From: Microbacterium sp. | GTDB lineage: Bacteria; Actinomycetota; Actinomycetes; Actinomycetales; Microbacteriaceae | Direction: 5' to 3' | DNA: 41,101 nt | Assembly (NCBI GenBank): GCA_002703245.1 | Contig: NZTV01000037.1 | Location: 1 to 41,101 of the forward strand | In this document: positions 4,442-22,243 of the stretch, piece by piece | Position numbering within the stretch: position 1 is the stretch's first letter | How the letters are laid out: each line of letters opens with the position of its first letter | Made by a program: the position numbers and the translations under genes | Notes under the pieces: generated by a model | Seen by the model: only the letters and a program-made list of their open reading frames with translations | What the model was told of the DNA's origin: nothing | Database searches by the model: none

Positions 4442-6334
4442 ATGGCACGACTCCCGCACCATGACGGGTCGCCGCTGTACGTGTCCACCCAGACCCCGCG
4501 GGCGGGGGAGAGGGTGCGGGTGCGGATCCGCCTTCCCGACGATGACGCGCCGCTGCGGGCCGTCCACGTCCTGGCCAACCCCGACCACGAGCCGGAGTGG
4601 ACCCCCGCCCGACGGCTGGGTGCGCTCCAGCGGTGGCAGTGGTGGGAGGCGGAGATCGTCGTGCGCAATCCCCGACACGGCTACCGGTGGCTGCTGGTCG
4701 GAGAGGACGGCGACATCCGTTGGGTGAACCAGGCCGGTGTCCACTCCGGTGAGACCCGTGACGTCGACGACTTCGCCCTGCTCACTCACCCCGCTCCACC
4801 GTCGTGGATGACCGACGCGGTCATGTACCAGATCTTCCCCGATCGGTTCTCGCGCTCCGCGCAGGCCGACTCGCGCCCGACACCCGAGTGGGCGATCCCC
4901 GCGCACTGGGGCGACCCGGTCGACCCGGTCCTGCCGGGACGCTCGCAACAGTTCTACGGGGGCGACCTCGACGGCGTCGTCGACCGGCTCGACCATCTCA
5001 GCGCATTGGGGGTCGACGTGATCTATCTCACGCCGTTCTTCCCCGCCGCGTCCAACCACCGGTACGACGCGTCCCGCTTCGACGTCGTCGATCCGTTGCT
5101 GGGCGGGGACGACGCTCTGGTCAGGCTGATCGACGCCGCCCACCGTCGCGGCATCCGCGTCATCGGTGATCTCACCACCAATCACTCGGGCGACCGCCAC
5201 GCGTGGTTCCGTGCCGCCTTTCAGACGCCCGGCGCGCCGGAGGAGGATTTCTACTACTTCACCGACGACGAGAACACCGCCTACGAGTCCTGGCTCGGCA
5301 CTCCGTCGCTGCCGAAGTTCGACTGGGCCTCGCCCGAACTGCGGCGGCGCTTCATCGAGGGGAGCGACTCGGTCGTGGCCCGATGGCTGCTGCCGCCCTT
5401 CCGGGCCGACGGCTGGCGGATCGACGTCGCGAACATGACCGGGCGCCTCGGGAAGGTGGACCTGAACGCGCAGGTCCGGGCGACGATCCGACGCACGATG
5501 ATCGACGTGAACCCGGACACGCTCCTCATCGCCGAGATCACCAACGACGCCTCCGGCGATCTGCAAGGCGACGGCTGGCACGGGGCGATGACCTATCCGT
5601 CCTTCACCCGCCCCCTGTGGGGCTGGCTGTGCGCGCCCACCGGGGAGCCGTACCTGACGGCGGAAGGCGAGGAGCGCCGCGAGCCGTGGTTCTTCGGGCA
5701 ACCCCTCGGGGGGATCCCGCGGGGCACGGGAGTACAGTTCGTGGACGCCGTCGTGCGGTTCACGAGCGGAATCCCATGGCGCGTGAGACTCGGGAACATG
5801 CTCGCGTTGGACAGCCACGACACGGCGCGCTTCGCCACGAACGCGCCCGCGGAGGTGATCCCGGTCGCGGTGGGCCTGTCGATGACGCTCCCCGGGCTCC
5901 CGGTCGTCTATGCCGGCGACGAGTTCGGTCTCACCGGTGCCGACGGTGAAGCCAGCCGCACACCGATGCCCTGGGGAACGGAGGAGGAGTCGGAGACGGC
6001 GCGACGCCTGGCGCTGTACCGGGATCTCATCGGCGTGCGTCGGACGCACCCGGCTCTGTCGACCGGGGGGCTGCGCTGGCTGCACGTCGAGGACGATGCG
6101 ATCGTGTTCGTCCGGGAGCACCCGGACGAGAGCGTCCTTGTGCTCGCCGCGCGCGCAGAGGCACGGATCACGCTCGACGCCGCCGAGCTGTCCGATCCGC
6201 GCGGTGCGCGGACGGTGTTCGGCGATGCGCTCCTCGAGACGGATGCGCACGTCGTGGTGCTCCACGCGACGCATGCGACGTTCGGAGTGTGGTCTCTCCC
6301 GCCGGTCGTCGTGCCCGAGTCCGACAGGGGGTGA
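4442..6334 (+). CDS. GH13 alpha-glycosidase, neopullulanase/cyclomaltodextrinase-like
   Basis: A 630-residue glycoside hydrolase that cleaves alpha-1,4 (possibly alpha-1,6) bonds of imported maltodextrins; no signal peptide is seen, so it is cytoplasmic. About 120 N-terminal residues form a beta-rich, CBM34-like domain. The barrel starts near WMTDAVMYQIFPDRFSR. The four GH13 regions are present: DLTTNH (243-248), GWRIDVAN with nucleophile Asp328, IAEI with acid/base Glu365, and LDSHD with stabilising Asp460. The ATG at 4442 follows AAAGGAAG at seven bases; longer upstream readings in this frame overlap malG and are not real. It is the last gene of the mal operon. The exact enzyme (neopullulanase, cyclomaltodextrinase or maltogenic amylase) cannot be settled from sequence. 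Confidence 0.9.
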   Translation: MARLPHHDGSPLYVSTQTPRAGERVRVRIRLPDDDAPLRAVHVLANPDHEPEWTPARRLGALQRWQWWEAEIVVRNPRHGYRWLLVGEDGDIRWVNQAGVHSGETRDVDDFALLTHPAPPSWMTDAVMYQIFPDRFSRSAQADSRPTPEWAIPAHWGDPVDPVLPGRSQQFYGGDLDGVVDRLDHLSALGVDVIYLTPFFPAASNHRYDASRFDVVDPLLGGDDALVRLIDAAHRRGIRVIGDLTTNHSGDRHAWFRAAFQTPGAPEEDFYYFTDDENTAYESWLGTPSLPKFDWASPELRRRFIEGSDSVVARWLLPPFRADGWRIDVANMTGRLGKVDLNAQVRATIRRTMIDVNPDTLLIAEITNDASGDLQGDGWHGAMTYPSFTRPLWGWLCAPTGEPYLTAEGEERREPWFFGQPLGGIPRGTGVQFVDAVVRFTSGIPWRVRLGNMLALDSHDTARFATNAPAEVIPVAVGLSMTLPGLPVVYAGDEFGLTGADGEASRTPMPWGTEEESETARRLALYRDLIGVRRTHPALSTGGLRWLHVEDDAIVFVREHPDESVLVLAARAEARITLDAAELSDPRGARTVFGDALLETDAHVVVLHATHATFGVWSLPPVVVPESDRG

Positions 6335-6392
6335 CCGCCGCCGGGCGCATGGTGCGGCGGAAGCACACCGGAAAGGCTGGCAGACTGGAGGG

Positions 6393-6410
6393 GCGGCCCC
6401 GCGGGGCCGC
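6393..6410 (+). terminator. Possible stem-loop between the mal operon and tRNA-Gln
   Basis: GCGGCCCC (6393-6400) is complementary to GGGGCCGC (6403-6410), giving a compact GC hairpin whose outer pairs are stable. It lies 58 bases after the GH13 stop and two bases before the tRNA. It could terminate the mal transcript, but there is no T-tract and it nearly touches the tRNA, so the role is uncertain. Confidence 0.3.
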
Positions 6411-6412
6411 GG

Positions 6413-6484
6413 TCCGCCGTGGTGTAATGGCAGCACGACAGCCTTTGGAGCTGTGAGGTCTAGGTTCGAGTCCTGGCGGCGGAG
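6413..6484 (+). tRNA. tRNA-Gln (anticodon TTG)
   Basis: A complete cloverleaf of 72 bases. The acceptor TCCGCCG (6413-6419) pairs with CGGCGGA (6477-6483), and the discriminator is G at 6484. The anticodon stem ACAGC/GCTGT closes the seven-base loop CTTTGGA, giving anticodon TTG, which reads CAA and CAG. The T-arm is CTAGG-TTCGAGT-CCTGG. The 3' CCA is not encoded (the next bases are CATGG), so a CCA-adding enzyme is needed. The glmU ATG starts at 6486, one base after the discriminator. Confidence 0.95.
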
Positions 6485-6485
6485 C

Positions 6486-7937
6486 ATGGTGAGCACCGAC
6501 ACGCAGTTGGCCGTCATCGTCCTGGCCGCGGGCCAGGGCACGCGGATGAAGTCCTCGACCCCGAAGGTGTTGCACCGCATCGGCGGGCGATCGCTCGTCG
6601 GCCATGTCCTGGCCACCGCCCGTTCCCTCCGACCGGCGCGCGTGGTCGCCGTGGTCCGTCACGAACGCGACCGGGTCGCCGCCGAGATCGCCGACGAAGC
6701 CCCCGAGGCGATCGTCGTCGACCAGGACGACATCCCCGGTACCGGCCGCGCGGTGGAGGTCGCCTTGGAGGCGCTCGCCGATTTCGACGGCGATGTCGTC
6801 GTCCTCAGCGGCGATGTGCCGCTGCTGCAGGAAGACACCCTGTCGGCGCTGGTCGGCGCCCACCGCGATCGCTCGGCGGGGGCCACCGTGATGAGCGCGC
6901 TCCTGGAGGACGCGACCGGGTACGGCCGCGTGATCCGCGACGCCTCCGGTGACGTGCTGCGCATCGTGGAGCAGAAGGACGCCTCCGAAGCGGAGCGAGG
7001 CGTGGGCGAGATCAACGCCGGCGTGTACGTGTTCCAGATCGACACTCTGCGCGTGCACCTGGCCGAGATCGGGACCGACAACGCGCAGGGGGAGAAATAC
7101 CTCACCGACGTGATCGCCCTCGCCCGGGCTGCGCAGCGCCCCGTCGCGGCGGCCGTCGCGCCCGACAGCGCCGCGGCGCTCGGGGTGAACGACCGCGTGC
7201 AGCTGTCGGAGGCGGCGCGGACTCTGAACGCCCGAACCGTGCGCCGTTGGCAGCTCGAGGGTGTCACGGTGCTCGACCCCGCCACCACCTGGATCGACGT
7301 CACCGCCACGCTCGCCCCCGATGTCACCCTGCTGCCCGGCACGCAGGTGCTGCGCGCGACGACGGTCGGGGAGGGCGCGACCATCGGCCCCGACACCAGC
7401 TTGGTCGGCTGCGAGGTCGGCGCGCGCGCCACGGTGACGCGCACCGACGCCACCTTCGCCGTGATCGGCGACGGAGCCAGCGTCGGGCCTTTCGCCTATC
7501 TCCGTCCCGGGGCCGAGCTGGGGCCGCGTGGCAAGGTCGGCACCTTCGTCGAGGTGAAGAACTCCACCATCGGTGAGGGCAGCAAGGTGCCCCACCTGTC
7601 GTACATCGGCGACACCGAGATCGGTGACCGCGTGAACCTCGGCGCCGGTGCGATCACGGCGAACTACGACGACGTCGACAAGCACCGCACCGTCATCGGT
7701 GACGAGGTCCACAGCGGCTCGCACAACGTCTTCGTCGCCCCCGTTAGAATCGGTGATGGCGCGAAGACCGGCGCGGGTGCCGTCATTCGCAAGGATGTGC
7801 CCCCGGGTGCCCTGGCGTTGAGCGTCGCCCCTCAGCGCAATGTCGAGGGGTGGGTCGAAAAGAACAGATCGGGTACCGGAGCCGCAGAGGCGGCGGCGAG
7901 GGCCCGGTCGGCACAGAAGGCGGACGATGGCGCGTAA
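6486..7937 (+). CDS. glmU: Bifunctional N-acetylglucosamine-1-phosphate uridyltransferase / glucosamine-1-phosphate acetyltransferase
   Basis: This cytoplasmic enzyme makes UDP-GlcNAc for peptidoglycan. The N-terminal half is the pyrophosphorylase with nucleotide-binding LAAGQGTRMKS (residues 13-23) and VVLSGDVPLL. The C-terminal half is a left-handed beta-helix acetyltransferase, with GPFAYLRPGAELG, EVKNSTIGEGSKVPHLSYIG and AGAITANYDDVDK typical of GlmU. Length is 483 residues, normal for the family. The start is either ATG 6486 or GTG 6489. The only purine-rich ribosome site is GGCGGAG, which is the 3' strand of the tRNA-Gln acceptor stem. The 3' end overlaps prs by 11 bases. Confidence 0.95.
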   Translation: MVSTDTQLAVIVLAAGQGTRMKSSTPKVLHRIGGRSLVGHVLATARSLRPARVVAVVRHERDRVAAEIADEAPEAIVVDQDDIPGTGRAVEVALEALADFDGDVVVLSGDVPLLQEDTLSALVGAHRDRSAGATVMSALLEDATGYGRVIRDASGDVLRIVEQKDASEAERGVGEINAGVYVFQIDTLRVHLAEIGTDNAQGEKYLTDVIALARAAQRPVAAAVAPDSAAALGVNDRVQLSEAARTLNARTVRRWQLEGVTVLDPATTWIDVTATLAPDVTLLPGTQVLRATTVGEGATIGPDTSLVGCEVGARATVTRTDATFAVIGDGASVGPFAYLRPGAELGPRGKVGTFVEVKNSTIGEGSKVPHLSYIGDTEIGDRVNLGAGAITANYDDVDKHRTVIGDEVHSGSHNVFVAPVRIGDGAKTGAGAVIRKDVPPGALALSVAPQRNVEGWVEKNRSGTGAAEAAARARSAQKADDGA

Positions 7938-8961
7938 GAAGAAGACGGTCGAGTTGGATCGGGAGCACGAGGTCGCCCCCGGCCTGGTCGCCAAAACCAA
8001 GAAGCGCCTGGTGGTGGCATCCGGTCGATCGCATCACGCGCTCGCCGAGGACGTCGCCACGGCGTTGGGCACCCAGCTGGTGCCCACCGAGTACCGCACG
8101 TTCGCGTCGGGTGAGATCCTCACCCGGTTCGAAGTCTCCATCCGGGGCTGCGACGTGTTCCTGGTGCAGTCGTTCGGTCCCCCGGTGAACGAGTGGATCA
8201 TGGAGCTGCTCATCATGCTCGATGCCGCCAAGCGTGCATCCGCGAAGCGCATCACCGTCGTCGCGCCCTACTATCCGTATTCGCGCCAGGACAAGAAGGG
8301 GCGCGGGCGCGAGCCCATCAGCGGCCGCCTGGTCGCCGACCTGCTGAAGACCGCCGGTGCCGACCGGGTGATGAGCGTGGACCTCCACGCTGCGCAGATC
8401 CAGGGATTCTTCGACGGTCCCGTGGACCACCTGTTCGCCAAGCCGGTGCTGCTGGAGTACTTCGAGCAGAACCTCTCCGCCGCCGATCGGGAGCAGCTGA
8501 CCGTCGTCTCGCCCGACACAGGTCGCGTGCGCGTGGCGGACACGTGGTCCGACAGCCTGGGGGCGCCGCTGGCGATCATCCACAAGCGACGCGATCCGAA
8601 CGTGGCCAACCAGGTCACCGTCAACGAGATCGTCGGTGACGTCGAAGGTCGCGTCTGCCTCCTGGTCGACGACATGATCGACACCGGCGGCACGATCGTC
8701 AAGGCCGCTGAGGCGCTCAAGGCCAATGGCGCCCTCCGCGTGATCGTGGCCGCCACCCACGCCATCTTCAGCGACCCCGCCTCGCAGCGGCTGCAGAGCG
8801 AGGCGGTCGACGAGGTGGTCGTCACCGACACCGTCCCGGTCCCGGACGACAAGCGCTTCCCGTCCCTGACGGTGTTGCCGATCGCGCCGCTGCTGGCCCG
8901 CGCCATCCACGAGGTGTTCGAAGACGGCTCGGTCACGAGCATGTTCAACGGCGCCGCCTGA
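7927..8961 (+). CDS. prs: Ribose-phosphate pyrophosphokinase (PRPP synthase)
   Basis: Converts ribose 5-phosphate and ATP to PRPP for nucleotide, histidine and tryptophan synthesis. Its 344 residues include the family blocks PYYPYSRQDKKGRGREPISG, the SVDLHAAQIQGFF segment, and the PRPP loop VDDMIDTGGT (about residues 247-256). The ATG at 7927 lies inside the 3' end of glmU, with AGAAGG six bases upstream, so the two genes are coupled. A short Lys/Arg-rich N-terminal extension precedes the conserved domain. glmU-prs adjacency is widely conserved in bacteria. Confidence 0.96.
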   Translation: MARKKKTVELDREHEVAPGLVAKTKKRLVVASGRSHHALAEDVATALGTQLVPTEYRTFASGEILTRFEVSIRGCDVFLVQSFGPPVNEWIMELLIMLDAAKRASAKRITVVAPYYPYSRQDKKGRGREPISGRLVADLLKTAGADRVMSVDLHAAQIQGFFDGPVDHLFAKPVLLEYFEQNLSAADREQLTVVSPDTGRVRVADTWSDSLGAPLAIIHKRRDPNVANQVTVNEIVGDVEGRVCLLVDDMIDTGGTIVKAAEALKANGALRVIVAATHAIFSDPASQRLQSEAVDEVVVTDTVPVPDDKRFPSLTVLPIAPLLARAIHEVFEDGSVTSMFNGAA

Positions 8962-9031
8962 TCGCGGTCGCCCCCGTCGTCCCCACCATCGCGCGGGGCG
9001 GGACGGATACCGCTCGACCCGAGGAGACCTC

Positions 9032-9454
9032 ATGACCGTCCGTGTCGTCACCCCCGTCCGCGTGACCGCCGCGGGCGTCGGCGTGCTCGGTGCCGCCCTC
9101 CTGGGTGGCTGTGCGACGGGAGATACGGGCACCGCGGACAGCGGGGGAGGCTCGCCCTCCCACGCCGACGGCTCGTACACCGCCGAAGGCTCATACGCCA
9201 CTCCCGAGTCGGTGGAGACCGTGACGGTGACCGTGACGCTCGAGGGTGACATCGTCACCGCCGTCGAAGTGGTCGGAGAGCCCACCAACGCGGAGTCGCA
9301 GCGCTACCAGTCGGAGTTCATCGGCGGGATCGCGGCCGAGGTGGTCGGCAAGGACATCGACGAGGTGTCGGTCTCGCGCGTCGCCGGCTCCTCGCTCACC
9401 AGCGGCGGTTTCCGGCAGGCGCTGGACCAGATCAAGGCCGACTCGGCGGCGTGA
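9032..9454 (+). CDS. FMN-binding domain lipoprotein, predicted covalent flavin carrier
   Basis: A 140-residue secreted lipoprotein: hydrophobic N-terminus, lipobox LGGC with the lipidated Cys at residue 27, a Gly/Ser linker, then one FMN-binding (NqrC/RnfG C-terminal-type) domain from about residue 45. The family's flavinylation motif (usually SGAT followed by x-T/S) appears as AGSSLTS at 118-124, so the acceptor would be Ser121 rather than Thr. The next gene encodes ApbE, the enzyme that attaches FMN to such proteins. The GTG of apbE overlaps this stop (GTGA). GAGGAG precedes the ATG. The predicted role is an outer-face one-domain electron carrier; its acceptor is unknown. Confidence 0.88.
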   Translation: MTVRVVTPVRVTAAGVGVLGAALLGGCATGDTGTADSGGGSPSHADGSYTAEGSYATPESVETVTVTVTLEGDIVTAVEVVGEPTNAESQRYQSEFIGGIAAEVVGKDIDEVSVSRVAGSSLTSGGFRQALDQIKADSAA

Positions 9455-10320
9455 GCGCATCGACCCCGCGCGCGGTGTGGGGGTTCGACGCGATCGGCGT
9501 GCCCTGGCGCGTCGAGACCGGGGTGGAGACGGACGCCGCTTCCCGCGACCTGATCGGCGCCATCGTCGCGGACTTCGACCGGTCTTGGTCGCGATTCCGG
9601 CCCGACTCGACGGTCTCCCGCCTCGCTGCGGGGGCCGGTTCCCTTCCCGCACCATCCGACGCGAGCGCGATGCTGGATGCCCTCGCCGCAGCCGCGGACG
9701 CCACCTCGGATGCGGTCACGCCGCTGGCCGGTGACGCGTTGGCCGCCATCGGATACGACGCGGCGCTCACCCTCCGCCCCGGACCCGCGCGGCCCGCAGA
9801 ACGCTGGAGGGGCGTGTTGTCCTGGACCCCCGAGCGGATCGGACTCGCGCGCCCGGCCCTCATCGACGTGGGGGCGCTGGGCAAGGGGCGGCTGGTCGAT
9901 CTCGTCTTCGATGCGTTGGCGGATCGGCCGGGGCCGCTCACCGTCGATGCCAGCGGCGACCTCCGCACGCGCGGGGCGGTCGAACGGGTCGGTCTCGAGC
10001 ATCCCCACGACGCGCACCGCGTGATCGGCGTATGGGAGATCCAGGATGCCGCGCTGTGCGCCTCGGCGACGAACCGGCGCGCCTGGGGGAACGGGCTCCA
10101 CCATGTGATCGACGGACGCACCGGTCGACCGGTGCAGACGATCGTCGCGACGTGGGCCGTCGCCGACGACGCGATGCACGCCGATGCGGTTGCGACCGCG
10201 CTGTTCTTCGAGGGCGGCCCGCGCCTCGCGTGGGAGTGGGGCGTGGAGTGGGTGAGGATGACCTCCGACGGTCGCGCCGAGTACTCTCCCGGATGTACCG
10301 CGCACCTGTTCACGGCGTAG
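9451..10320 (+). CDS. apbE: FAD:protein FMN transferase
   Basis: ApbE transfers FMN from FAD to a Thr or Ser of a target protein through a phosphoester bond, with Mg2+. Its 289 residues carry the family blocks DVGALGKGRLVD, a DASGDLRTRG segment (family GG[D/N]), NRRAWGNGLHHVIDGRTGRP and DAMHADAVATALF. No lipoprotein signal is visible, unlike many exported ApbE proteins, so the site of action is uncertain. It could act in the cytoplasm before export, or the signal may be missed. The GTG start overlaps the stop of the FMN-binding lipoprotein by four bases, making that protein the obvious substrate. Confidence 0.9.
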   Translation: MSASTPRAVWGFDAIGVPWRVETGVETDAASRDLIGAIVADFDRSWSRFRPDSTVSRLAAGAGSLPAPSDASAMLDALAAAADATSDAVTPLAGDALAAIGYDAALTLRPGPARPAERWRGVLSWTPERIGLARPALIDVGALGKGRLVDLVFDALADRPGPLTVDASGDLRTRGAVERVGLEHPHDAHRVIGVWEIQDAALCASATNRRAWGNGLHHVIDGRTGRPVQTIVATWAVADDAMHADAVATALFFEGGPRLAWEWGVEWVRMTSDGRAEYSPGCTAHLFTA

Positions 10321-10337
10321 ACGCGCGCGGCGGGGGT

Positions 10338-10343
10338 TAGCGT
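10338..10343 (+). promoter_or_regulatory. -10 box for a leaderless transcript of the membrane flavin reductase
   Basis: TAGCGT is followed by six bases (GGTGGG) and then the GTG at 10350. Transcription would start at or next to the start codon. There is no good Shine-Dalgarno here, which fits leaderless translation. Read-through from apbE (18 bases upstream) is also possible. Confidence 0.45.
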
Positions 10344-10349
10344 GGTGGG

Positions 10350-11918
10350 GTGATCGCGTCGTTGACCTCGTTCTCCAACCGCGTGTTCGCGGTGCTCGGC
10401 CGTATGTCGATGTACCGGGTGGTGTTCCTCGCCCTGGTCGGCTTGAGCGTCGTGGCGCTGCTCGTCTCGATGCTCGGTCTGGTCGCCCCCACCCCCGTCG
10501 AGCTGATCGTGACCCTGGCGGTGCTGGCTGTGGCGTGCGTGGTGACGGACGGGATCGCCCATCGGGTGGTGCGGCTGCCGCTTCGTCTGGAATCCGCGCT
10601 GATCACGTCCTTCATCCTCGTGTTCGTCTTGCGCCCCACCCTCGAACCGGCCGCACTGGGCGGCATCGCGATCGCCGGTGTCGTCGCGTCGGCGTCGAAG
10701 TACCTGTTGGCATGGCGAGGGCGGCACATCTTCAACCCCGCCGCCGTCGGGGCGACCGTGCTCACCCTTCTCAGCGTCGCGGTGCCGGCCCTCGGTGCCT
10801 CGTCGTGGTGGGTGGGGACCCCCGTGCTGGCCGCCCCGGTGATCCTGTTCGGGCTCGCGGTACTCTGGCGCACCGAGAAGGTGCGCGTGATCGCCCTGTT
10901 CCTCGTCGTCGCGGTCGGGGTGGGGGTGGTGCGCACCTCGGTGCAGTACCAGCAGGCGGGGATCGCGGTGGAGGGCGCCGATCTGGTGTGGCCGGTGCTG
11001 TGGTCTTCACCGTTCCTGTTCCTGGGTGCGTTCATGCTCTCCGAGCCGCTGACGCTCCCGCCACGTCGTTGGCAGCAGCTCACCGTGGCGGCTCTGGTCG
11101 GCGTGCTCGCGGGCTGGCCCATCGATGTCGGTGCCGTCGGTCTCGGCCAGGAGCGCGCGCTGCTGATCGGCAACCTGCTCGCGTTCGCCTTCACCTTCCG
11201 CACGGCGGTGCGGATGACCCTCACACGACGGCGCCACCTCACCCCGACGGTGCAGGAGCTCACCTTCCGGACGAAGCGGCCGTTGCGGTTCGCCCCGGGG
11301 CAGTTCCTCGAGCTCGACGTCCCGCACCGTCGGCCGGACGCACGCGGCACACGGCGTGAATTCAGCATCGTTTCGGCACCGGCCGACGCCCCCGATGTGC
11401 GGGTCGCGTTCCGCGACGCCGTCGGCGCGGGCGCGCCCCAGAGCAGCTACAAGAAGGCGCTCGCGGACGTGACGGAGGGTTCCTCGCTGGCGGTCACGGG
11501 GGTGTGGGGGGACTTCCTGCTTCCGACGAGCACGTCCAGCCCGGTACTCATGGTGGCGGCGGGCATCGGCGTCACCCCCTTCGTGTCGCAGCTGCGGCAG
11601 GCGCGGCTGACGGAGCAGGATCGCGATGTCGTGCTGGTCTACATCGCCGCCGAAGCCTCAGAGCTGGTGTACCGGGAGGAGATCGAGGCCTCCGGTGTGC
11701 CGGTCGTCGTCTTCACCCGCGACGAGCCGGCCGACCTCGCACCTCACTGGCGTTGGGCGCGAGGGGTCCGGCTCGATGCCGACGGGCTCGTGCGGGTCGT
11801 TCCCGACATCGCCATGCGTCACGCATACATCTCCGGGCCGCCGAGGTTGATCGCCGACCTGGCCCCCGCGCTCGAGCGGGCGCGGTCGATCACGACCGAC
11901 GCCTTCTCGGGCTACTGA
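10350..11918 (+). CDS. RnfD/NqrB-like membrane domain fused to an NAD(P)H:flavin oxidoreductase domain
   Basis: A 522-residue two-part protein. Residues ~1-290 are hydrophobic with about eight or nine membrane segments and include GRHIFNPAAVGA, matching the HIFNPAA block of RnfD/NqrB subunits. Residues ~290-522 are a ferredoxin-NADP reductase-type module: PGQFLELDVP, the FAD motif R336-E-F-S339, and the nucleotide motif AAGIGVTPF near 403-411. The likely role is to take electrons from cytoplasmic NAD(P)H through FAD and pass them across the membrane to the flavinylated lipoprotein two genes upstream. No Fe-S cysteine motif and no SGAT flavinylation motif are visible in it. The stop overlaps the convergent kinase stop by seven bases. 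Confidence 0.85.
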   Translation: MIASLTSFSNRVFAVLGRMSMYRVVFLALVGLSVVALLVSMLGLVAPTPVELIVTLAVLAVACVVTDGIAHRVVRLPLRLESALITSFILVFVLRPTLEPAALGGIAIAGVVASASKYLLAWRGRHIFNPAAVGATVLTLLSVAVPALGASSWWVGTPVLAAPVILFGLAVLWRTEKVRVIALFLVVAVGVGVVRTSVQYQQAGIAVEGADLVWPVLWSSPFLFLGAFMLSEPLTLPPRRWQQLTVAALVGVLAGWPIDVGAVGLGQERALLIGNLLAFAFTFRTAVRMTLTRRRHLTPTVQELTFRTKRPLRFAPGQFLELDVPHRRPDARGTRREFSIVSAPADAPDVRVAFRDAVGAGAPQSSYKKALADVTEGSSLAVTGVWGDFLLPTSTSSPVLMVAAGIGVTPFVSQLRQARLTEQDRDVVLVYIAAEASELVYREEIEASGVPVVVFTRDEPADLAPHWRWARGVRLDADGLVRVVPDIAMRHAYISGPPRLIADLAPALERARSITTDAFSGY

Positions 11919-13489
11919 CGAGGCCCGTCCGCGACATCCGGCTCGCCTTCCGGTTCGACTTCCGGCTCGAGTTCCGGCTCCGCCGGCGCGGCCGTCGGAT
12001 CGGCCGGACGGGCGGGGATGCGGACTTCGAACACGGTGTCGCCCGGCTCGCTGCGTACGGTGATGTGGCCGCCGTGGGCGCCCACGATCGCCTTGGCGAT
12101 CGACAGCCCCAGTCCGGTGCCGCCGCTCTTGCGGGCGCGGGACCGGTCGGCGCGGGAGAACCGTTCGAACAGCTCGTCGGCGATCGAGGGGTCGACCCCC
12201 GGACCGTCGTCGCGCACGCGGAGCACCGCATCGTCACCGTCGCGCACGACGCTGAGAGTCACCTTCGTGCCGGCCGGAGTGTGGGTGCGGGCATTGGCGA
12301 GAAGGTTCGCCACGACCTGATGCAGCCGTGCGGCGTCCCCGGCGACGTGCAACGACTCGTCGGGCACCTCGAGCACCCATTCGTGCTCCGGCCCCGCCGG
12401 TCGCGCGTCTGCGACGGCCTCGACCGCGATCTGGGTGAGGTCGATCGGGCTGTACACCAGCTCCTGACCTTCGTCGAGCCGTGCCAGCAGGAGCAGGTCT
12501 TCGACGAGGTCGGTCATCCGCACCGACTGGGCCTGGATGCGCTCGAGCGACTGCTCGGTGGTCTCCGCGGCCTGCGGGGAGTCCGGGTGGGTGCGCAGCG
12601 CTCGAAGGGACAACTCCGAGAACCCTCGGATGGAGGCCAGGGGGGTGCGCAACTCGTGGCTGGCGTCGGCGACGAACCGGCGCATCCGTTCTTCGTTGCG
12701 CTGGCGGGCATCCAGTGACGAGTCCACGTGGTCGAGCAGCGTGTTCAGCGCATGGCCGACGCGACCGATCTCGGTGTTCTCGTCGGTCTGATCCTCGGGG
12801 ACCCGCTCGGTGATCGAGACATCTCCTTCGGCCAACGGCTGATTGGCGACCCGGGTGGCCGTCGTGGAGACCGCGCGCAGGGGTGCGAGGGAACGCCTCA
12901 CGATCCACGCCACGATCGCGGCGAGGAGAATCAGCCCGCCGGTGGTCATGAGGACGACGGAGGTGATGATGGGGGTGACGGTCTCCTGGACGCCGGACTC
13001 GGGCATCCCGGCGTACGCGACATACCCGAGCGACTGGTACGGGAACATGCGGTAGTCGCCGAGCCCGTCGATGTCGACGGTGGTGTACTCCGGCGTCGTG
13101 ACGCCGAGCAGGACGTCTTCGACCTGAATGTCGGTCAGGGTGACGATGTCACCGGGGCCCGCGACGTACGCGCCGGTCGCCGTGCCCTCCCCGCCGCCGC
13201 GGAGCACCAGGACGGTGCCCTGGGGCTGGTTGCCGGACTGCAACACCTCGGAGGCGGTGACCTGCTGGCTCTCGCGCGGGATCTTCAGGTCGAGCAGTGT
13301 GCCCGCCGTCTGTTGCGCGGCGCTTTGCACCTGAGCGTTGAGGTTGTCCTGCAACACCCTCCCCAGGACGGCGCTGGTGGCGATGGCCACCATCACGAGG
13401 ATCAGCGCGACGACGGCGACGATGGCGGTGATCAGACGCGCCTGCAGACTCCACTGTCGGGGTCCGCGAGAAGGCGCGGCTGAGGTCAT
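11912..13489 (-). CDS. Two-component sensor histidine kinase
   Basis: A membrane kinase of 525 residues. TM1 lies near 18-43, followed by an extracytoplasmic sensing domain of about 130 residues (44-178) and TM2 near 179-202. Next come a HAMP linker and the H-box FVADASHELRTPLASIRG. The ATP-binding domain holds an N-box (HQVVANLLANARTHTP) and Gly-rich boxes DDGPGVD and GGTGLGLSIAK. The C-terminal ~25 residues are a Pro/Glu-rich repeat tail. The start ATG overlaps the response-regulator stop (ATGA), so the pair is co-translated. The inducing signal is not evident; the divergent MacB-type ABC transporter suggests envelope stress or an antimicrobial. Confidence 0.93.
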   Translation of the reverse strand: MTSAAPSRGPRQWSLQARLITAIVAVVALILVMVAIATSAVLGRVLQDNLNAQVQSAAQQTAGTLLDLKIPRESQQVTASEVLQSGNQPQGTVLVLRGGGEGTATGAYVAGPGDIVTLTDIQVEDVLLGVTTPEYTTVDIDGLGDYRMFPYQSLGYVAYAGMPESGVQETVTPIITSVVLMTTGGLILLAAIVAWIVRRSLAPLRAVSTTATRVANQPLAEGDVSITERVPEDQTDENTEIGRVGHALNTLLDHVDSSLDARQRNEERMRRFVADASHELRTPLASIRGFSELSLRALRTHPDSPQAAETTEQSLERIQAQSVRMTDLVEDLLLLARLDEGQELVYSPIDLTQIAVEAVADARPAGPEHEWVLEVPDESLHVAGDAARLHQVVANLLANARTHTPAGTKVTLSVVRDGDDAVLRVRDDGPGVDPSIADELFERFSRADRSRARKSGGTGLGLSIAKAIVGAHGGHITVRSEPGDTVFEVRIPARPADPTAAPAEPELEPEVEPEGEPDVADGPRQ

Positions 13490-14229
13490 TGCGGGGCCTT
13501 GATCATGTATCCGACGCCGCGGACGGTGTGGATGAGCGGGTCGCGGCCGGCGTCCAGCTTCTTGCGGAGGTAGGAGATGTACAGCTCGACGACGCTGGAA
13601 CGGCCGCCGAAGTCGTAGTTCCACACGCGGTCGAGGATCTGGGCCTTGGAGACCACGCGCCGCTGGTTGCGCATGAGGAAGCGCAGCAGCTCGAACTCCG
13701 TCGCGGTCAACTCGATCTCGTCGTCGCCGCGGATGACCTCGTGACTGTCCTCGTTCAGCGAGAGGTCGCCGACCCGCAGGATCGGCTCCGTCTCGGCCGA
13801 CAGGGCTGTTCCGGCGCGCCGCATGAGACCGCGCAGACGTGCGACGACCTCTTCGAGGCTGAACGGCTTCGTGACGTAGTCGTCGCCACCGGCGGTCAGG
13901 CCGGCCACACGGTCGCCGACGGCGTCCTTGGCCGTGAGGAACAGCACCGGAACGTCGTTGCCCGACTGACGCAGGCGCTGGAGCACCGCCATACCGTCGA
14001 GGTCGGGCATCATGATGTCGAGCACGAGGGCGTCCGGGGCGAATTCGCGTGTCTCCTGCAGCGCCTGGAGGCCGGACGCGGCCGTGCGCACATCCCATCC
14101 CTCCATCCGCAGAGCCATGGACAGCAGATCGGTCAGCATCTGCTCGTCGTCCACGACGAGCACGCGCAGGGGGGAGCCATCGGGTCGCGTCAGGGCGGCG
14201 GCGGGAGTCGGGGGGGTCATGTCTCCCAT
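13486..14229 (-). CDS. OmpR/PhoB-family response regulator
   Basis: A 247-residue DNA-binding regulator. The receiver domain (~20-135) has the acidic pair D27/D28, phosphoacceptor Asp71 in VLDIMMPDLDG, and conserved Lys121 in TKPF. The winged-helix domain (~150-245) ends with RSSVVELYISYLRKKLDAG and HTVRGVGYMIK. It is the first gene of the operon with the kinase. The start is uncertain. ATG 14229 has no ribosome site, while ATG 14220 has GGGAG only two bases upstream. Tandem 11-base repeats begin 13 bases upstream of the start and probably bind this protein. Confidence 0.93.
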   Translation of the reverse strand: MGDMTPPTPAAALTRPDGSPLRVLVVDDEQMLTDLLSMALRMEGWDVRTAASGLQALQETREFAPDALVLDIMMPDLDGMAVLQRLRQSGNDVPVLFLTAKDAVGDRVAGLTAGGDDYVTKPFSLEEVVARLRGLMRRAGTALSAETEPILRVGDLSLNEDSHEVIRGDDEIELTATEFELLRFLMRNQRRVVSKAQILDRVWNYDFGGRSSVVELYISYLRKKLDAGRDPLIHTVRGVGYMIKAPQ

Positions 14230-14242
14230 TGTGCGGATCGAC

Positions 14243-14287
14243 CTATGTGATTCCTATGGCGTGCTCTATGTGAATCCTGTGAAGGTG
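14243..14287. promoter_or_regulatory. Tandem 11-base-phased repeats, predicted response-regulator binding site
   Basis: CTATGTGATTCCTATG (14243-14258) is repeated as CTATGTGAATCCTGTG (14266-14281) 23 bases later, with two mismatches in 16. Each copy contains two CTATG/CTGTG elements 11 bases apart, giving four elements about one helical turn apart. OmpR/PhoB regulators bind head-to-tail direct repeats with this phasing. The site lies between the regulator/kinase operon and the divergent ABC transporter, so it could control both. No biochemical evidence is visible. Confidence 0.55.
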
Positions 14288-14393
14288 GCGCGTGGGGTGC
14301 ACAACGATTTCATAGGCGGTCCTGCGGGTCGTCATGGACACCGTTCGTAGCGTCGCTTCGACGGCCGGCATCGTGCCCGCCGAGAGGAGACCC

Positions 14394-15878
14394 ATGTACG
14401 CAAGGTATCTGCGGCGGGAGCTGGCCGGCCGCAAGAAGCAGACCGTGATCGTGGCCTCGGGGCTCGCGATCGCGATCGCACTCGTGATGATCGTCAACTC
14501 CCTGGCCGCCGGGGTCCGGGACGCGCAGGCGCAGACGCTCGAGGCCGTTTACGGCGTCGGTACCGACCTGACGGTGACGGGAGCCCAGGCGGAGCCGGGC
14601 GAGGGCGGTCGTGGGCAGCAGTTCCAGTTCGACGAGGACGCGGGATCGACCGACGACGACGGCACCACCTCGCTTGCGCAATCGCAGTTGATGACCGAGA
14701 TGTTCCGGTCCACCCTCGACGCATCCGTGCTGGAGACCGTGCGGGAGATCGACGAGGTCGCCGCGGCGACCGGGACCCTGAGCCTGACCAACACGACCTT
14801 CTCCGGCGAGCTTCCGGAACGGCCCTCCACCGACGACATCTCCGGCGACGCCGGCGCCGGCGGTCAGGCACCGCCCACCGGCGGAGATACGGGCGGCGGC
14901 TTCGGCGGCGGAGCCTTCGACCTCGACTCCTTCACCGTGATGGGCGTCGAAGCGGACGCCGCAGCGCTCGGCCCGTTGTCGGCGGTGACCGTCAGCGATG
15001 GCCGAGGGCTCGAGTCCAGCGACAGCGGCCAGTTCGTCGCCGTCATCGACGCGACCTACGCGGCGACGGCGGAACTGGCCGTCGGAGACACGCTCGAGAT
15101 CGCGGGGGAGGATTTCGAGGTGGTCGGCGTCGTCACCTCGACCTCCGACGAGGCGGACACCGCGTCGAACGTGTACATCCCGCTCGATGTCGCCCAGGAT
15201 CTCTCGGGCGTCGGTGACGCGGTGTCCACCGTCTACGTGCAGGCGACGTCGTCGGATGCGATCAGTGCCGTGCAGACGGAACTGGAGGAGGCGCTGCCCG
15301 AGGCCACGGTCAGTTCGCAATCAGATCTCGCCTCGACGGTGTCGGGATCGCTGTCCAGCGCATCGGCACTCATCACGAACCTCGGGACGTGGTTGTCGGT
15401 GATCGTGCTGATCGTCGCGCTCGCGTTGGCGGTGCTGTTCACGATCTCCGGTGTCAGCCGGCGCACCCGGGAGTTCGGCACGCTCAAGGCCATCGGGTGG
15501 TCCAACGGGCGCGTGGTCGGGCAGGTGGCCGGGGAATCGGTCGTGCAGAGCCTCATCGGCGGCGCGGCGGGGCTGATCATCGGGCTCATCGGCATCGGGA
15601 TCATCAACGTGGCCTCACCGACGATCTCGACCGCCGCGGCCACGACGGCAGAGCAGACCGGTCCCGGCTCCGGCGGTCCCGGATTCGGCGGGGGCCAGGC
15701 ATTCGGCCAGGCCGCCACGCAGACCGCGAGCGACATCGTGCTTCAGGCGCCGGTCACCCTGTGGGTCGTGGGAGCCGCCATCGGGCTCGCGATGCTCGGA
15801 GGACTGCTCGCCGGCGCCTTCGGCGGCTGGCGCGCTTCGCGACTGAGCCCGGCCGAAGCGCTGAGGTCGGTCGGATGA
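14394..15878 (+). CDS. MacB/FtsX-type ABC transporter permease
   Basis: A 494-residue integral membrane protein with the MacB layout. One membrane helix lies near the N-terminus (QTVIVASGLAIAIALVMIVN), then a large extracytoplasmic domain (~45-330), then three C-terminal helices in the FtsX domain with SGVSRRTREFGTLKAIGWSN, typical of this family. Two Gly-rich stretches stand out, one in the extracytoplasmic domain (about 160-180) and one between the last helices (about 420-435). The ATG at 14394 has a strong GAGAGGAG; an upstream in-frame ATG at 14334 has no ribosome site. It forms a pair with the ATPase downstream. Export of a lipid, peptide or drug, or mechanotransmission, is inferred from the family. 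Confidence 0.88.
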   Translation: MYARYLRRELAGRKKQTVIVASGLAIAIALVMIVNSLAAGVRDAQAQTLEAVYGVGTDLTVTGAQAEPGEGGRGQQFQFDEDAGSTDDDGTTSLAQSQLMTEMFRSTLDASVLETVREIDEVAAATGTLSLTNTTFSGELPERPSTDDISGDAGAGGQAPPTGGDTGGGFGGGAFDLDSFTVMGVEADAAALGPLSAVTVSDGRGLESSDSGQFVAVIDATYAATAELAVGDTLEIAGEDFEVVGVVTSTSDEADTASNVYIPLDVAQDLSGVGDAVSTVYVQATSSDAISAVQTELEEALPEATVSSQSDLASTVSGSLSSASALITNLGTWLSVIVLIVALALAVLFTISGVSRRTREFGTLKAIGWSNGRVVGQVAGESVVQSLIGGAAGLIIGLIGIGIINVASPTISTAAATTAEQTGPGSGGPGFGGGQAFGQAATQTASDIVLQAPVTLWVVGAAIGLAMLGGLLAGAFGGWRASRLSPAEALRSVG

Positions 15879-16756: not shown

Positions 16757-18217
16757 TCAGTGGGTGTCTTCGGCCTCGATCTCGCTGCGGTCGCCCGACC
16801 ACAGCGTGTGGAAGGTGCCGTCCTTGTCGATGCGCTTGTAGGTGTGCGCGCCGAAGAAGTCACGCTGGCCCTGGATGAGGGCGGCCGGCAGACGGTCCGC
16901 CCGCAGCCCGTCGTAGTAGGCCAGGGACGAGGAGAACGCCGGAGCCGGGATGCCCACGCGCGCCGAGGTGGCGACGACTTCGCGCCACGCCGCCTGCGCG
17001 CGCTGCAGCGCCTCGACGAAGTACGGTGCGGTCAGCAGCACCGGGAGCTCGGTCTCGGTGTCGTAGGCCTCGGCGATGCGGTTGAGGAACTGCGCGCGGA
17101 TGATGCAACCGCCGCGCCAGATCTTCGACACCGCGCCGAGGTCGATCTTCCAGTCGTACTCGGCGGCACCCGCGCGGATCTCGTCGAAGCCCTGCGAGTA
17201 CGCCACGATCTTCGACGCGTACAGCGCCAACCGGATCTTCTCGATGAACGCCTCGGGGTCTTCCACCGTCCAGTTCGACTGTGCGTCGTCGGCGGGACCG
17301 GGAAGCCCGCGGGAAACCTCCCGCTGCTCGGCGTGGCTCGACAGCGATCGCGCGAAAGTCGCCTCGGCGATGCCGGAGACGGGGACGCCCAGGGACAGCG
17401 CCGTCTGAACCGTCCATGCGCCGGTGCCCTTGGCCCCGGCCTGGTCGAGGATCACATCGACCAGCGGCTTCTGCGTGTCGGCGTCGACCTGGCGGAGCAC
17501 CTCCGCGGTGATCTCGATCAGGTACGACTCCAGTTCGCCGCGGTTCCACTCGGCGAACACGTCGGCGATCTGCGCCGGGGTCTTGCCCGTGCCACGCCGG
17601 ATGAGGTCGTACGCCTCGGCGATGAGCTGCATATCGGCGTACTCGATGCCGTTGTGCACCATCTTGACGAAGTGTCCGGCGCCGTTGTGCCCGACGTGGG
17701 TGACACACGGCTCGCCCTCGGCGACGGCCGCGATCGAGGTCAGGATCGGTCCGAGCGTGACCCAGGACTCGTCGGAGCCACCGGGCATGATCGACGGGCC
17801 GCGCAGTGCGCCCTCCTCGCCGCCGGAGACGCCCATGCCGACGAAGTTGATGCCGGTTTCACGCACCGCCTTCTCCCGGCGGATCGTGTCGGTGAACAGC
17901 GCGTTGCCGCCGTCCACGATGATGTCGCCGGGCTCGAAGACCTCGACGAGGGACTCGATGACCGCGTCGGTCGCGCGGCCGGCCTTGACCATGATCACCG
18001 CGGTGCGCGGCTTCTGCAGCGACGCGGCGAACTCCTCGTACGAGAAGGCGGGTACGAATCCCGCTTCGGGGTGCTCGGTGACCAGCTCGTCGGTCTTGGC
18101 ACGGGAGCGGTTGTACACCGCCACCGTGTTTCCTTCGCGGCTGGCGAGGTTGCGGGCCAGGTTCGAGCCCATCACCGCCAGACCGACCACGCCGATGTTC
18201 GCTGAGTTCTCGCTCAC
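16757..18217 (-). CDS. gnd: 6-phosphogluconate dehydrogenase, decarboxylating
   Basis: Oxidises and decarboxylates 6-phosphogluconate to ribulose 5-phosphate with NADP. The 486-residue length is normal for the long-chain form. Visible blocks are GLAVMGSNLARN and VYNRSRAK (the Arg fits NADP use), GVSGGEEGALRGPSIMPGG, HFVKMVHNGIEYADMQL, and the C-terminal FFGAHTYKR segment. The start is GTG at 18217 with AAGGAG six bases upstream. It lies 69 bases downstream of eda on the same strand. Its place beside gluconate kinase suggests it is the outlet for 6-phosphogluconate made by this island; a second gnd elsewhere cannot be ruled out. Confidence 0.96.
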   Translation of the reverse strand: MSENSANIGVVGLAVMGSNLARNLASREGNTVAVYNRSRAKTDELVTEHPEAGFVPAFSYEEFAASLQKPRTAVIMVKAGRATDAVIESLVEVFEPGDIIVDGGNALFTDTIRREKAVRETGINFVGMGVSGGEEGALRGPSIMPGGSDESWVTLGPILTSIAAVAEGEPCVTHVGHNGAGHFVKMVHNGIEYADMQLIAEAYDLIRRGTGKTPAQIADVFAEWNRGELESYLIEITAEVLRQVDADTQKPLVDVILDQAGAKGTGAWTVQTALSLGVPVSGIAEATFARSLSSHAEQREVSRGLPGPADDAQSNWTVEDPEAFIEKIRLALYASKIVAYSQGFDEIRAGAAEYDWKIDLGAVSKIWRGGCIIRAQFLNRIAEAYDTETELPVLLTAPYFVEALQRAQAAWREVVATSARVGIPAPAFSSSLAYYDGLRADRLPAALIQGQRDFFGAHTYKRIDKDGTFHTLWSGDRSEIEAEDTH

Positions 18218-18286
18218 GCGCGCTCCTTCTTGATCCGCTCGTCGGGGTTCCCGGTCGCCGCGCGGCGATCCGGGCCGTTGTACAGC

Positions 18287-18928
18287 CTAGGGTGTGGCGG
18301 CCCGCGCGACCGTCTTCGCGGTCAGCCGGGTGATCCGGTCCCAGTCGCGCTCTGCGACCGCGGCGCGGGGAAGCATCCACGACCCCCCGACCGCCGCGAT
18401 GCACGGTTCGGCGAGGTAGTCGCCGAACGTGTCTTCGCCGATGCCGCCGGTGGGGATGAAGGTGACGTCTCCGAACGGTGCGGACAGGGCACGCACGGCG
18501 GCGAGCCCGCCGGAGGTCTCGGCGGGGAAGAATTTGAGCGTGGAGAAGCCGTGTTCCCGTGCGCTCTGCACCTCGGTCGCCGTGGCCGCGCCCGGCACGA
18601 GGGGGATTCCCCGTCCCCGGGCGCGTTCGGCCACTGAGGTGCTCAGGCCCGGGGAGACGAGGAATCGGACCCCGATGTCGGCGGCGAGGTCGACCTGGTC
18701 GGGCGTCGTGACGGTGCCTGCTCCGACGATGAGGTCGTCGCGCTCGACGAGCGCGGCCATGACCGCTACGGCGGCGGGGGTGCGGAAGGTCACCTCGGCC
18801 ACGGGGAGACCGCCGGCCGCCAGCGCCGAGGCGATGCCGATGCCTTCTTCGACGCTCTCGGCGACGACGACGGGAACGATGCGGTGGGGGCGGAGGAGGT
18901 CGACGGCGTTGTTCATTTCCGGGTCCAT
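18287..18928 (-). CDS. eda: 2-keto-3-deoxy-6-phosphogluconate (KDPG/KHG) aldolase
   Basis: A class I aldolase of 213 residues that splits KDPG into pyruvate and glyceraldehyde 3-phosphate, or cleaves 4-hydroxy-2-oxoglutarate. Catalytic Glu45 lies in EVTFRT and the Schiff-base Lys132 in TLKFFPAE, at the spacing seen in known Eda. PTGGIGEDTFGDYL is the phosphate-binding region. I chose ATG 18928. The next ATG (18916) is also possible, and earlier in-frame ATGs fall in or before the predicted -10 box. The Entner-Doudoroff dehydratase (edd) is not in the window, so the source of KDPG here is unclear. It heads an eda-gnd operon. Confidence 0.92.
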   Translation of the reverse strand: MDPEMNNAVDLLRPHRIVPVVVAESVEEGIGIASALAAGGLPVAEVTFRTPAAVAVMAALVERDDLIVGAGTVTTPDQVDLAADIGVRFLVSPGLSTSVAERARGRGIPLVPGAATATEVQSAREHGFSTLKFFPAETSGGLAAVRALSAPFGDVTFIPTGGIGEDTFGDYLAEPCIAAVGGSWMLPRAAVAERDWDRITRLTAKTVARAATP

Positions 18929-18930
18929 TC

Positions 18931-18957
18931 GTGACACGATCGAATAAATCATACTAT
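18931..18957. promoter_or_regulatory. Divergent promoter/operator region between eda and gluconate kinase
   Basis: TATGAT on the minus strand (complement of 18948-18953) is a good -10 box for eda. TACTAT on the plus strand (18952-18957) overlaps it and could be the -10 for the kinase. ACACGATCGA (18934-18943) resembles the repeated ATACGATCTT elements in front of the FadR gene at 22101 and 22123. One regulator bound here could silence both directions. The -35 boxes are not clear. Confidence 0.45.
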
Positions 18958-19008
18958 TGAGCGCGGGGCGACCGATGCCCCGCAAGTCACAGACGACGGA
19001 CCTGGAAC

Positions 19009-20448
19009 ATGATCATTCTCGCGTTGGAATCAAGTACGACCTCGGCCAAGACGCTCCTGTTCGATTCCGAGTCCGGGAGCATCGCGGTGCGCAGCCGTCG
19101 ATTCGAAGTCCCGGGCCCGGACACCTCCGTGCGGGACCCCGACGCGATCTACACGCAGCTCATGGCACTCGGCCGTGAGGCCGCCGCCGGTGTCGCGGTC
19201 GATCTCATCGTGCTCAGCGGCACGTGGCACGGACTCACCCTGGTCGACGACGACCTGCGCGTGGTCACCCCGGTGCGGGAGTGGCCGGACACCAGCGCCC
19301 AGGATCTGTCCGCGCGCGAGCGCGCCGACGCCGAGTTCACCTGGTGGTTCTACGAGCGCACCGGATGCATGGTCAACGCGATCTACCCCGCCTTCAAACT
19401 CGCTTGGCTGCAGGAGCAGGGGATGTCGCTGGAAGGGCGCCTGGCCCTGGACCAGGCGTCGTTGAATTTCGCCCGGATGACCGGCGAGGCCACCACGAAC
19501 GTCTCTCTCGCGTCGGGGTCGGGTCTGCTGGGGGCGGAGAGTCTGGACTGGGACTCCGATGTGGTGGAGCGGCTCGGTATCTCCGCCGTGCGGCTCCCCG
19601 CCTTGCGGGACGCATCGCACACGGCGCCGCTGTCGGCGGACGCCGCGGTGCTGCTCGGGCTGCGTGCGGGGATCCCCGTACTCACGCCGGGCCCCGACGG
19701 GGGGCTCAGTCAGGTGGGGGATCGGGCCACGGAGCCGGGGGACATGACCTTCTCGATGGGCACCAGCGGCGCGCTCCGCTTCGCCACGCGGCATCCGTCT
19801 TTCTCCCCCGCGATGAGCACGTGGTCGTATCGCTCCCCGCTCGGCGCACTCAGTGGTGCCGCGACCTCCGGATGCGGCAACTGCGTCGACTGGGCCCGCG
19901 AACGGCTGTTCGGACTGACCACCGACTACGCCGAGATCGAACCGCTCCTGTCGGCCGACAAGTCGGACCTGCCGGTGTTCCTGCCGTTCCTGTTCGGGGA
20001 GCGCAGTCCCGGGTGGCAGGATCAGCGTCGCGGCGGCTTCCTGGACCTCAAGCCCAGCCATACCCGTGCCGACATGTACCAGGGTGTGCTGGAGGGCATC
20101 GTGTTCTCGCTCTACCACTGCTACAAAGAGCTGACCGCGCTCAACGGCATGCCCCGGCGCATCGTGCTCTCGGGCGGCGTGTTGTCCTCGCCGTTCTGGA
20201 CGCAACTGGTCGCCGACGTGTTCGGCGCCGAGTTGGAGGTCTCCGCCCTCCAGCACAGCTCGGTGGTCGGTGCGGTGCGGATGGGACTGTCGGCCAGCGG
20301 TCTCCCGGCGACTCACCCCGCCTTCGACGACGCCACGCCCGGACGCGTGACGCCGCGACCCGAGAGGAAGGCGCACTACGACCGGGAGTTCGCCAGGTAC
20401 CTCGACCACTACTCTCAGACGCGTCCGGGGTCGGGGGTCACGCGATGA
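19009..20448 (+). CDS. gntK: Gluconate kinase, FGGY family
   Basis: ATP-dependent kinase predicted to convert gluconate to 6-phosphogluconate, the substrate of the neighbouring gnd. The 479-residue protein has the two-lobe FGGY/actin-like fold: ALESSTTSAKTLLFD at the N-terminus, GEATTNVSLASGSGLL in lobe one, DMTFSMGTSGALRF as a phosphate loop, and RIVLSGGVLSSPFW near the C-terminus as the adenosine loop. It resembles the Bacillus-type GntK rather than the small P-loop GntK of Enterobacteria. The ribosome site is weak (CTGGA). Its stop overlaps the next start (ATGA). The sugar is inferred from GntP, Gnd and the SDR; other FGGY substrates remain possible. Confidence 0.85.
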   Translation: MIILALESSTTSAKTLLFDSESGSIAVRSRRFEVPGPDTSVRDPDAIYTQLMALGREAAAGVAVDLIVLSGTWHGLTLVDDDLRVVTPVREWPDTSAQDLSARERADAEFTWWFYERTGCMVNAIYPAFKLAWLQEQGMSLEGRLALDQASLNFARMTGEATTNVSLASGSGLLGAESLDWDSDVVERLGISAVRLPALRDASHTAPLSADAAVLLGLRAGIPVLTPGPDGGLSQVGDRATEPGDMTFSMGTSGALRFATRHPSFSPAMSTWSYRSPLGALSGAATSGCGNCVDWARERLFGLTTDYAEIEPLLSADKSDLPVFLPFLFGERSPGWQDQRRGGFLDLKPSHTRADMYQGVLEGIVFSLYHCYKELTALNGMPRRIVLSGGVLSSPFWTQLVADVFGAELEVSALQHSSVVGAVRMGLSASGLPATHPAFDDATPGRVTPRPERKAHYDREFARYLDHYSQTRPGSGVTR

Positions 20449-22086: not shown

Positions 22087-22100
22087 GGCGACTCCAATAA

Positions 22101-22145
22101 ATACGATCTTCTGATGGCAAAAATACGATCTTTATGTAAAGATCG
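22101..22145. promoter_or_regulatory. Repeated ATACGATCTT operator with palindrome between the FadR gene and gntP
   Basis: ATACGATCTT occurs at 22101-22110 and 22123-22132, exactly 22 bases (two helical turns) apart. The second copy is part of a perfect inverted repeat, CGATCTTT (22126-22133) with AAAGATCG (22138-22145), separated by ATGT. A related ACACGATCGA sits in the eda/gntK intergenic region. The simplest reading is a binding site for the adjacent FadR-type regulator. The stretch from 22146 to the gntP start shows no other clear signal beyond a GGAG ribosome site. Confidence 0.55.
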
Positions 22146-22243
22146 GATGTCCCCACGGGAAGCCGCGGAGGACGCTCGCATAGTACACGCGGACACCACG
22201 ACGACATCGTCGGTGCCCTCGGCATATCAATGGAGATTCACCG

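Follow-up and report, generated by a model that had tools for sequence, protein, structure and literature searches.

Can electrons be carried from cytoplasmic NAD(P)H to the outer side of the membrane by two proteins and one maturation enzyme? This question is raised by three neighbouring genes in the window, a stretch of 41,101 nucleotides (contig NZTV01000037.1, assembly GCA_002703245.1, Microbacterium sp.). The genes encode a predicted flavin mononucleotide (FMN)-binding lipoprotein, an ApbE flavin transferase and a fusion of an NqrB/RnfD-type membrane domain with a reductase domain. The original prediction, made from the DNA letters alone, had placed them together between 9032 and 11918 on the + strand, and the open reading frames (ORFs) confirmed this arrangement. 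We propose, with a probability of about 0.78, that the trio is an Nqr/Rnf-like two-subunit flavin relay with its maturation enzyme. A reduction to two electron carriers and ApbE had been suggested at the outset, and it agrees with the homology, the predicted structures and the conserved synteny. The published work cited below by PMC number was available in part, and statements about it refer to those parts.

Predicted structure of the fusion protein

The fusion gene (10350-11918, + strand) encodes 522 amino acids. Searches of Pfam and NCBIfam with the membrane half (residues 1-288; 10350-11213, + strand) gave no NqrB/RnfD match, and PF03116 found nothing. At the level of the family, PF03116 was matched at E<=0.001 by 17 of the 44 aligned membrane halves, a count made on membrane halves and not on whole proteins. 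The family profile of the membrane half was aligned by hhalign with 19 PF03116 proteins (probability 93.5, E 2.2e-7), and it also found the RnfD of A. vinelandii (E 7.8e-6).

When the whole fusion was compared with known structures by Foldseek, the 50 top rows went to FNR, flavohemoglobin and NADPH-oxidase entries, and the N-terminal half was therefore modelled alone. The AlphaFold model obtained had a predicted local distance difference test score (pLDDT) of 95.9 and a predicted template modelling score (pTM) of 0.92. Its 15 best PDB rows in Foldseek were all RnfD or NqrB chains (E 1.0e-6 to 9.3e-4), and its VIA Z scores were 20.7-23.5 for RnfD/NqrB versus 12.8 for the next fold, that of the urea transporters. 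Thus, the N-terminal half of the fusion is, by predicted fold and family profile, an NqrB/RnfD-type membrane domain. The original prediction had made the module depend on a structural match of this half to NqrB/RnfD, and such matches filled the best ranks.

Within the membrane half, a single position reaches a His share of 50% or more, H126 (119/120 fusions), which makes passage through two hemes unlikely. By hhalign, the Thr of the RnfD ATP(L) motif, which we take to be the flavinylated Thr of RnfD, lines up with a column that contains Thr in 78, Ser in 32, Asn in 7 and Ala in 3 of the 120 family members; in the window it is Thr157 (10818-10820, + strand), outside an SGAT-type context. Given this composition, the column does not appear to be a strictly kept flavin acceptor, which agrees with Huang et al. 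(PMC11334425), though the window protein does have Thr157.

The C-terminal half (residues 289-522; 11214-11918, + strand) matched PF00175 with 27.1 bits (cut-off 22) and PF08030, the ferric reductase NAD-binding domain, with 15.2 bits, under the cut-off of 22.2. Its Foldseek matches were FNR, SpNOX, flavohemoglobin and NqrF FAD-domain structures. By domain score and structural likeness this half is an FNR-type reductase, expected to bind flavin adenine dinucleotide (FAD) and NAD(P)H. Pfam called no 2Fe-2S ferredoxin domain in the fusion.

The lipoprotein as putative outer carrier

The first gene (9032-9454, + strand) encodes a lipoprotein of 140 amino acids, a putative NqrC/RnfG-like outer carrier. 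A signal with the lipobox cysteine C27 is followed by a degenerate, FMN_bind-like C-terminal domain, which scored 17.3 bits against PF04205 (FMN_bind), under the cut-off of 22. PF04205 was matched at E<=0.01 by 16 of 23 aligned family members, the window protein included (best E 6.5e-6), and the family profile found the solved FMN-binding domain 8p2a (E 0.0021). The motif GSSLT was kept in 45/45 relatives, and its second Ser, Ser121 (9392-9394, + strand), is aligned with the SGAT Thr of 8p2a. Ser121 is therefore the predicted flavinylation site.

The domain calls for this locus had been described as direct, and an HMM (hidden Markov model) search had been proposed as a check. In that search the description held for ApbE (106.4 bits) and for PF00175 in the fusion. 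It did not hold for the window lipoprotein, since its PF04205 score lies under the cut-off and the call is carried by the family, by 8p2a and by GSSLT, nor for the membrane half, in which PF03116 had no match.

The lipobox is present in 116/117 partner lipoproteins, whereas an RR pair occurs in the signal region of just 17/117. Tat export accordingly has no support as a general rule, and these counts make Sec the likelier export route.

An ApbE without a hydrophobic leader

The product of the second gene (9451-10320, + strand, 289 amino acids) matched PF02424 with 106.4 bits (cut-off 25.6). The motifs D.GA.GKG, HH..D..TG and AD..AT are conserved, and the protein matches ApbE structures such as 4xdt. 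By domain and motifs, it is a predicted ApbE flavin transferase. It was the only PF02424 match in its own genome, which is 83.96% complete, and two Microbacterium genomes (G000 and G106) had a single ApbE match each.

We found no hydrophobic stretch before the ApbE domain in any of 114 cluster ApbEs (0/114), a lack that the original prediction had not mentioned. The test was one of hydropathy, with a threshold of 1.6 over 15 residues read from the furthest upstream start, and was not SignalP. Among controls, 115/116 lipoprotein signals exceeded the threshold, and the E. coli ApbE reached 1.99 compared with 0.55 for the window ApbE. Before the domain, 66 of the 114 have fewer than 18 residues, 43 have a longer stretch that is not hydrophobic, and 5 have no upstream start codon (ATG, GTG or TTG). 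For the window gene itself, none of these three codons occurs upstream of 9451 within the open frame. A hydrophobic leader was likewise found in 0/30 high-scoring ApbEs of the class, linked to a fusion or not; these were the best-scoring places that yielded a locus, and thus a non-random draw.

According to a recent review (PMC12052999, JBC 2025), ApbE is typically an exported protein with a lipid anchor. The review also describes a cytosolic ApbE of Klebsiella, whose partner is a soluble fumarate reductase, and a thiamine-growth test in which a cytosolic ApbE failed to replace an exported one, in another bacterium and with another partner. A leaderless ApbE beside an exported lipoprotein implies either that FMN is attached before export or that ApbE leaves the cytosol by a route not seen here. 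For the former, the leaderless ApbE would flavinylate the pre-lipoprotein in the cytosol, and the lipoprotein would then pass through Sec with its FMN covalently in place. We offer this order of events only tentatively, with the odds somewhat against it, and the thiamine-growth result (PMC12052999) was counted against it. Attachment in the cytosol first is the reverse of the order in characterised systems, where an exported ApbE matures its partner outside. The accessible text of PMC8238504, PMC11334425 and PMC12052999 contained no discussion of leaderless actinobacterial ApbEs.

Conservation of the trio

To follow the trio in relatives, we compared 80 loci, which are the best 80 of 231 and come almost entirely from Microbacterium, and 40 further loci hand-picked from family- and phylum-genome hits. 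These loci also served to build the gene profiles with which they were scored. Among named relatives, Microbacterium is nearest, with fusion identities of 61-74% over the 80 loci (a few records carry other or vaguer labels). All three genes were found in the same order and on the same strand in 78/80 loci and in 36/40 further loci, the outcome of a gene-neighbourhood survey that had been proposed for the same trio. Because the order is conserved in relatives, the trio is beyond chance.

The two exceptions among the 80 are a locus cut at a contig end (L036) and one without lipoprotein and apbE (L080). Elsewhere, the lipoprotein gene of L177, a locus in order, lies more than 2 kb away, and L172 and L182 have no ApbE beside the trio partners, with ApbE located at another place in both genomes. 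One record, labelled Planococcus sp. APC 4015 (L025), contains a Microbacterium-type glmU-prsA-trio locus and is probably misnamed or contaminated.

Among 150 family genomes, a match to the query at E<=0.001 was found in 100; of the matches listed, the weak ones involve the reductase half only. Counted among the matches listed, a near-full-length fusion match occurs in 64/150, the own genome included. The family profile was matched in 231 of 396 phylum genomes, only 8 times near full length, and one of these 8 has an in-frame stop. A more distant fusion copy (L180:8641-10140) is split in two pieces by an in-frame stop.

Proposed mechanism and alternative explanations

From the genes, predicted folds, motifs and gene order observed here, we infer the cofactors, the direction of flow, the flavinylation and the acceptor as follows. 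In the cytosol, NAD(P)H would reduce the FAD of the FNR half. The NqrB/RnfD-type half would then conduct the electrons across the membrane, probably by way of a non-covalently held flavin. At the outer face they would reach the FMN that ApbE would have attached covalently to Ser121 of the lipoprotein. The reduced lipoprotein FMN may hand the electrons to an acceptor, soluble or in the envelope, that cannot be read from the locus. The direction from NAD(P)H to the outside, as originally inferred, is consistent with structure, homology and conserved synteny.

Several observations weigh against this relay. A leaderless ApbE does not account for an FMN on an exported lipoprotein. In the most distant loci, L178 (with a partial ApbE) and L179 (with an ApbE ORF of 252 amino acids), the upstream protein was unrecognised by the FMN_bind profile. 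The orphan fusion of L080 (L080:5900-7557) is intact, lies directly after prsA and keeps all 54 near-invariant residues; its genome, of unstated completeness, gave no ApbE match with a query that matched other genomes, and no lipoprotein match with a query that had no positive control. This fusion may thus act without lipoprotein and ApbE, and L080 is one case that may represent a recent loss. In addition, neither a functional assay nor a Microbacterium study of the class was found in the literature searched, whose coverage leaves out most subscription papers.

The orphan fusion also bears on another explanation, in which the fusion serves additionally or mainly a cytosolic or lipid-side acceptor (a flavin, a quinone or a MOSC molybdenum protein) and the lipoprotein is an optional branch. 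Its complete set of near-invariant residues would suit this, as would a MOSC-like gene that lies between apbE and the fusion gene in 17/80 loci (e.g. L007:5426-5989; one was scanned, 48.2 bits). The trio, however, stays together in most loci of both sets, and its own genome has no MOSC match; among the matches listed in the 150 family genomes, compared by eye, no MOSC match adjoins a listed fusion. We consider this explanation unlikely. A minimal ion pump, in which electron flow is linked to the transport of Na+ or H+, as in Nqr and Rnf, would draw on the homology of the membrane half to the NqrB/RnfD pump subunits. Searches of the own genome, at its 83.96% completeness, gave no match to PF02508 (RnfA/E, NqrD/E type; separate RnfB, RnfC and NqrF were not sought), to PF05896 (the N-terminal part of NqrA) or to PF03116, and each of these searches gave matches in control genomes. 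The published reading is also a single unidirectional path (PMC8238504, PMC11334425), and with these results coupling to ion movement is very unlikely.

Electrons could also cross through heme, if the fusion were a NOX/MsrQ-type enzyme, either an NADPH oxidase or a ferric reductase, and the lipoprotein an accessory. The first row of the whole-fusion Foldseek search is the S. pneumoniae NADPH oxidase (E 2.2e-12, TM 0.36 on query length), a match driven by the reductase half, and the sub-cut-off PF08030 score points the same way. Set against this, the membrane half alone folds as RnfD/NqrB, its single conserved His column is too few for two hemes, and no PF01794-type Pfam match was found in the fusion at E<=0.05. 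A heme enzyme is therefore extremely improbable.

Locus layout and neighbouring genes

The genome is Microbacterium-like, and the trio lies on the + strand 3' of prsA (ribose-phosphate pyrophosphokinase; ORF 7840-8961). A likely ribosome binding site of the first gene, GAGGAG, was inferred from the sequence at 9021-9026 (+ strand). In gene order, the start codons are ATG, GTG and GTG. The first two genes overlap at the apbE start and the lipoprotein stop, and 29 bases separate apbE from the fusion gene. A promoter scan found 0 promoters, a terminator scan found 1 versus 1.0 expected, and an Rfam scan found one tRNA only. A long ORF (5910-7937) contains this tRNA gene (6413-6484) in its first part and is glmU-like in its later part, a label given by eye. 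A gluconate-type cluster of 6-phosphogluconate dehydrogenase, FGGY kinase and GntP permease is located further away in the window (16757-23629).

Among the neighbours examined, we found no acceptor gene conserved beside the trio. One member each of nine neighbour clusters and one MOSC-like protein were scanned: a CNNM-type transporter, Oxidored_FMN (old-yellow-enzyme type), NAD(P)H-hydrate dehydratase, GT87, MFS, subtilase, isocitrate/isopropylmalate dehydrogenase, GNAT and P-type ATPase. In other genera the neighbours shift with the genomic site, and those scanned point to no consistent acceptor. The VIT1 iron transporter, reported for six clusters in PMC8238504, was not among the scanned neighbours, which are a part of all neighbours.

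A P-type-ATPase-like gene of about 910 codons is located between prsA and the lipoprotein gene in 33/80 loci (e.g. L002:1744-4488). Its placement is clean in 29, and in 4 the called ORF start reaches into prsA; the Microbacterium members were identified by their DKTGTLT motif. This gene and the MOSC-like gene are clade-level optional neighbours, absent at the window locus. In L180, a small ORF 3' of the fusion is MOSC-like by eye only.

Downstream in the window (11912-15878) lie a two-component system on the - strand (histidine kinase and response regulator, called by Pfam) and an ABC-permease-like ORF, labelled by eye. The histidine kinase was found downstream in 77/80 loci. Its distance from the fusion is at most 500 bases in 56 of them, in many of the others further genes lie in between, and it was therefore not included in the module. 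The ABC-permease-like ORF occurs in 43/80 loci. The link of both to the trio looks positional.

Relation to known systems

The original prediction had seen novelty in the compact fusion, a claim that did not survive. The same fusion and cluster were described by Meheust et al. in 2021 (PMC8238504) as 'NQR/RNF-like systems', in which an NqrB/RnfD-PF00175 fusion lies in a flavinylation cluster. These authors counted 127 clusters in 127 genomes, primarily of Actinobacteria and the candidate phyla radiation, and proposed that electrons move in one direction only, from NAD(P)H to an FMN domain outside the cytosol. In 2024, Huang et al. (PMC11334425) modelled the two-subunit complex of Ktedonobacter racemifer. 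The compact fusion is thus already known, and the window trio belongs to the published class. It shares with it an FMN-binding extracytosolic subunit, ApbE, an N-terminal NqrB/RnfD part fused to a C-terminal PF00175 part, and Actinobacteria as main holders; the window has PF00175 in the same protein and a lipobox FMN-binding protein with ApbE in the cluster.

Differences from this class were also observed. The window fusion escapes the PF03116 HMM that defines it, and window Thr157 aligns with the RnfD Thr, whereas PMC11334425 reports the RnfD/NqrB flavinylation site as missing in the class. Since only 17/44 membrane halves matched PF03116 at E<=0.001, a rule based on it misses more than half of the sampled members and would undercount such systems in this family; the 2021 census itself was not redone. 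This shortfall, together with leaderless cluster ApbEs that have lipobox partners, is what the present analysis adds to the published picture, as far as its available parts go.

Compared with Rnf, the membrane-half fold is that of RnfD and the outer carrier with covalent FMN would take the role of RnfG, while the window reductase is fused and the SGAT-type context is not kept. The likeness to Na+-NQR lies in the NqrB fold, the NqrF-type FAD/NAD domain and the NqrC role, and the difference in the fusion having no called 2Fe-2S domain. PplA/FmnB extracellular electron transfer in Listeria uses a different membrane conduit. It resembles the trio in having a Gram-positive envelope protein with FMN attached by an ApbE, and differs in that FmnB works outside the cytosol.

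The class has been predicted and modelled, yet the searchable literature yielded no assay, and many Microbacterium species carry the compact three-gene copy. Because G000 and G106 have a single ApbE match each, gene deletions could address the direction of flow, the acceptor and the maturation in one set of tests. Should the leaderless ApbE prove to be cytosolic, the trio would offer a direct test of whether a covalent cofactor can be fixed before Sec export.

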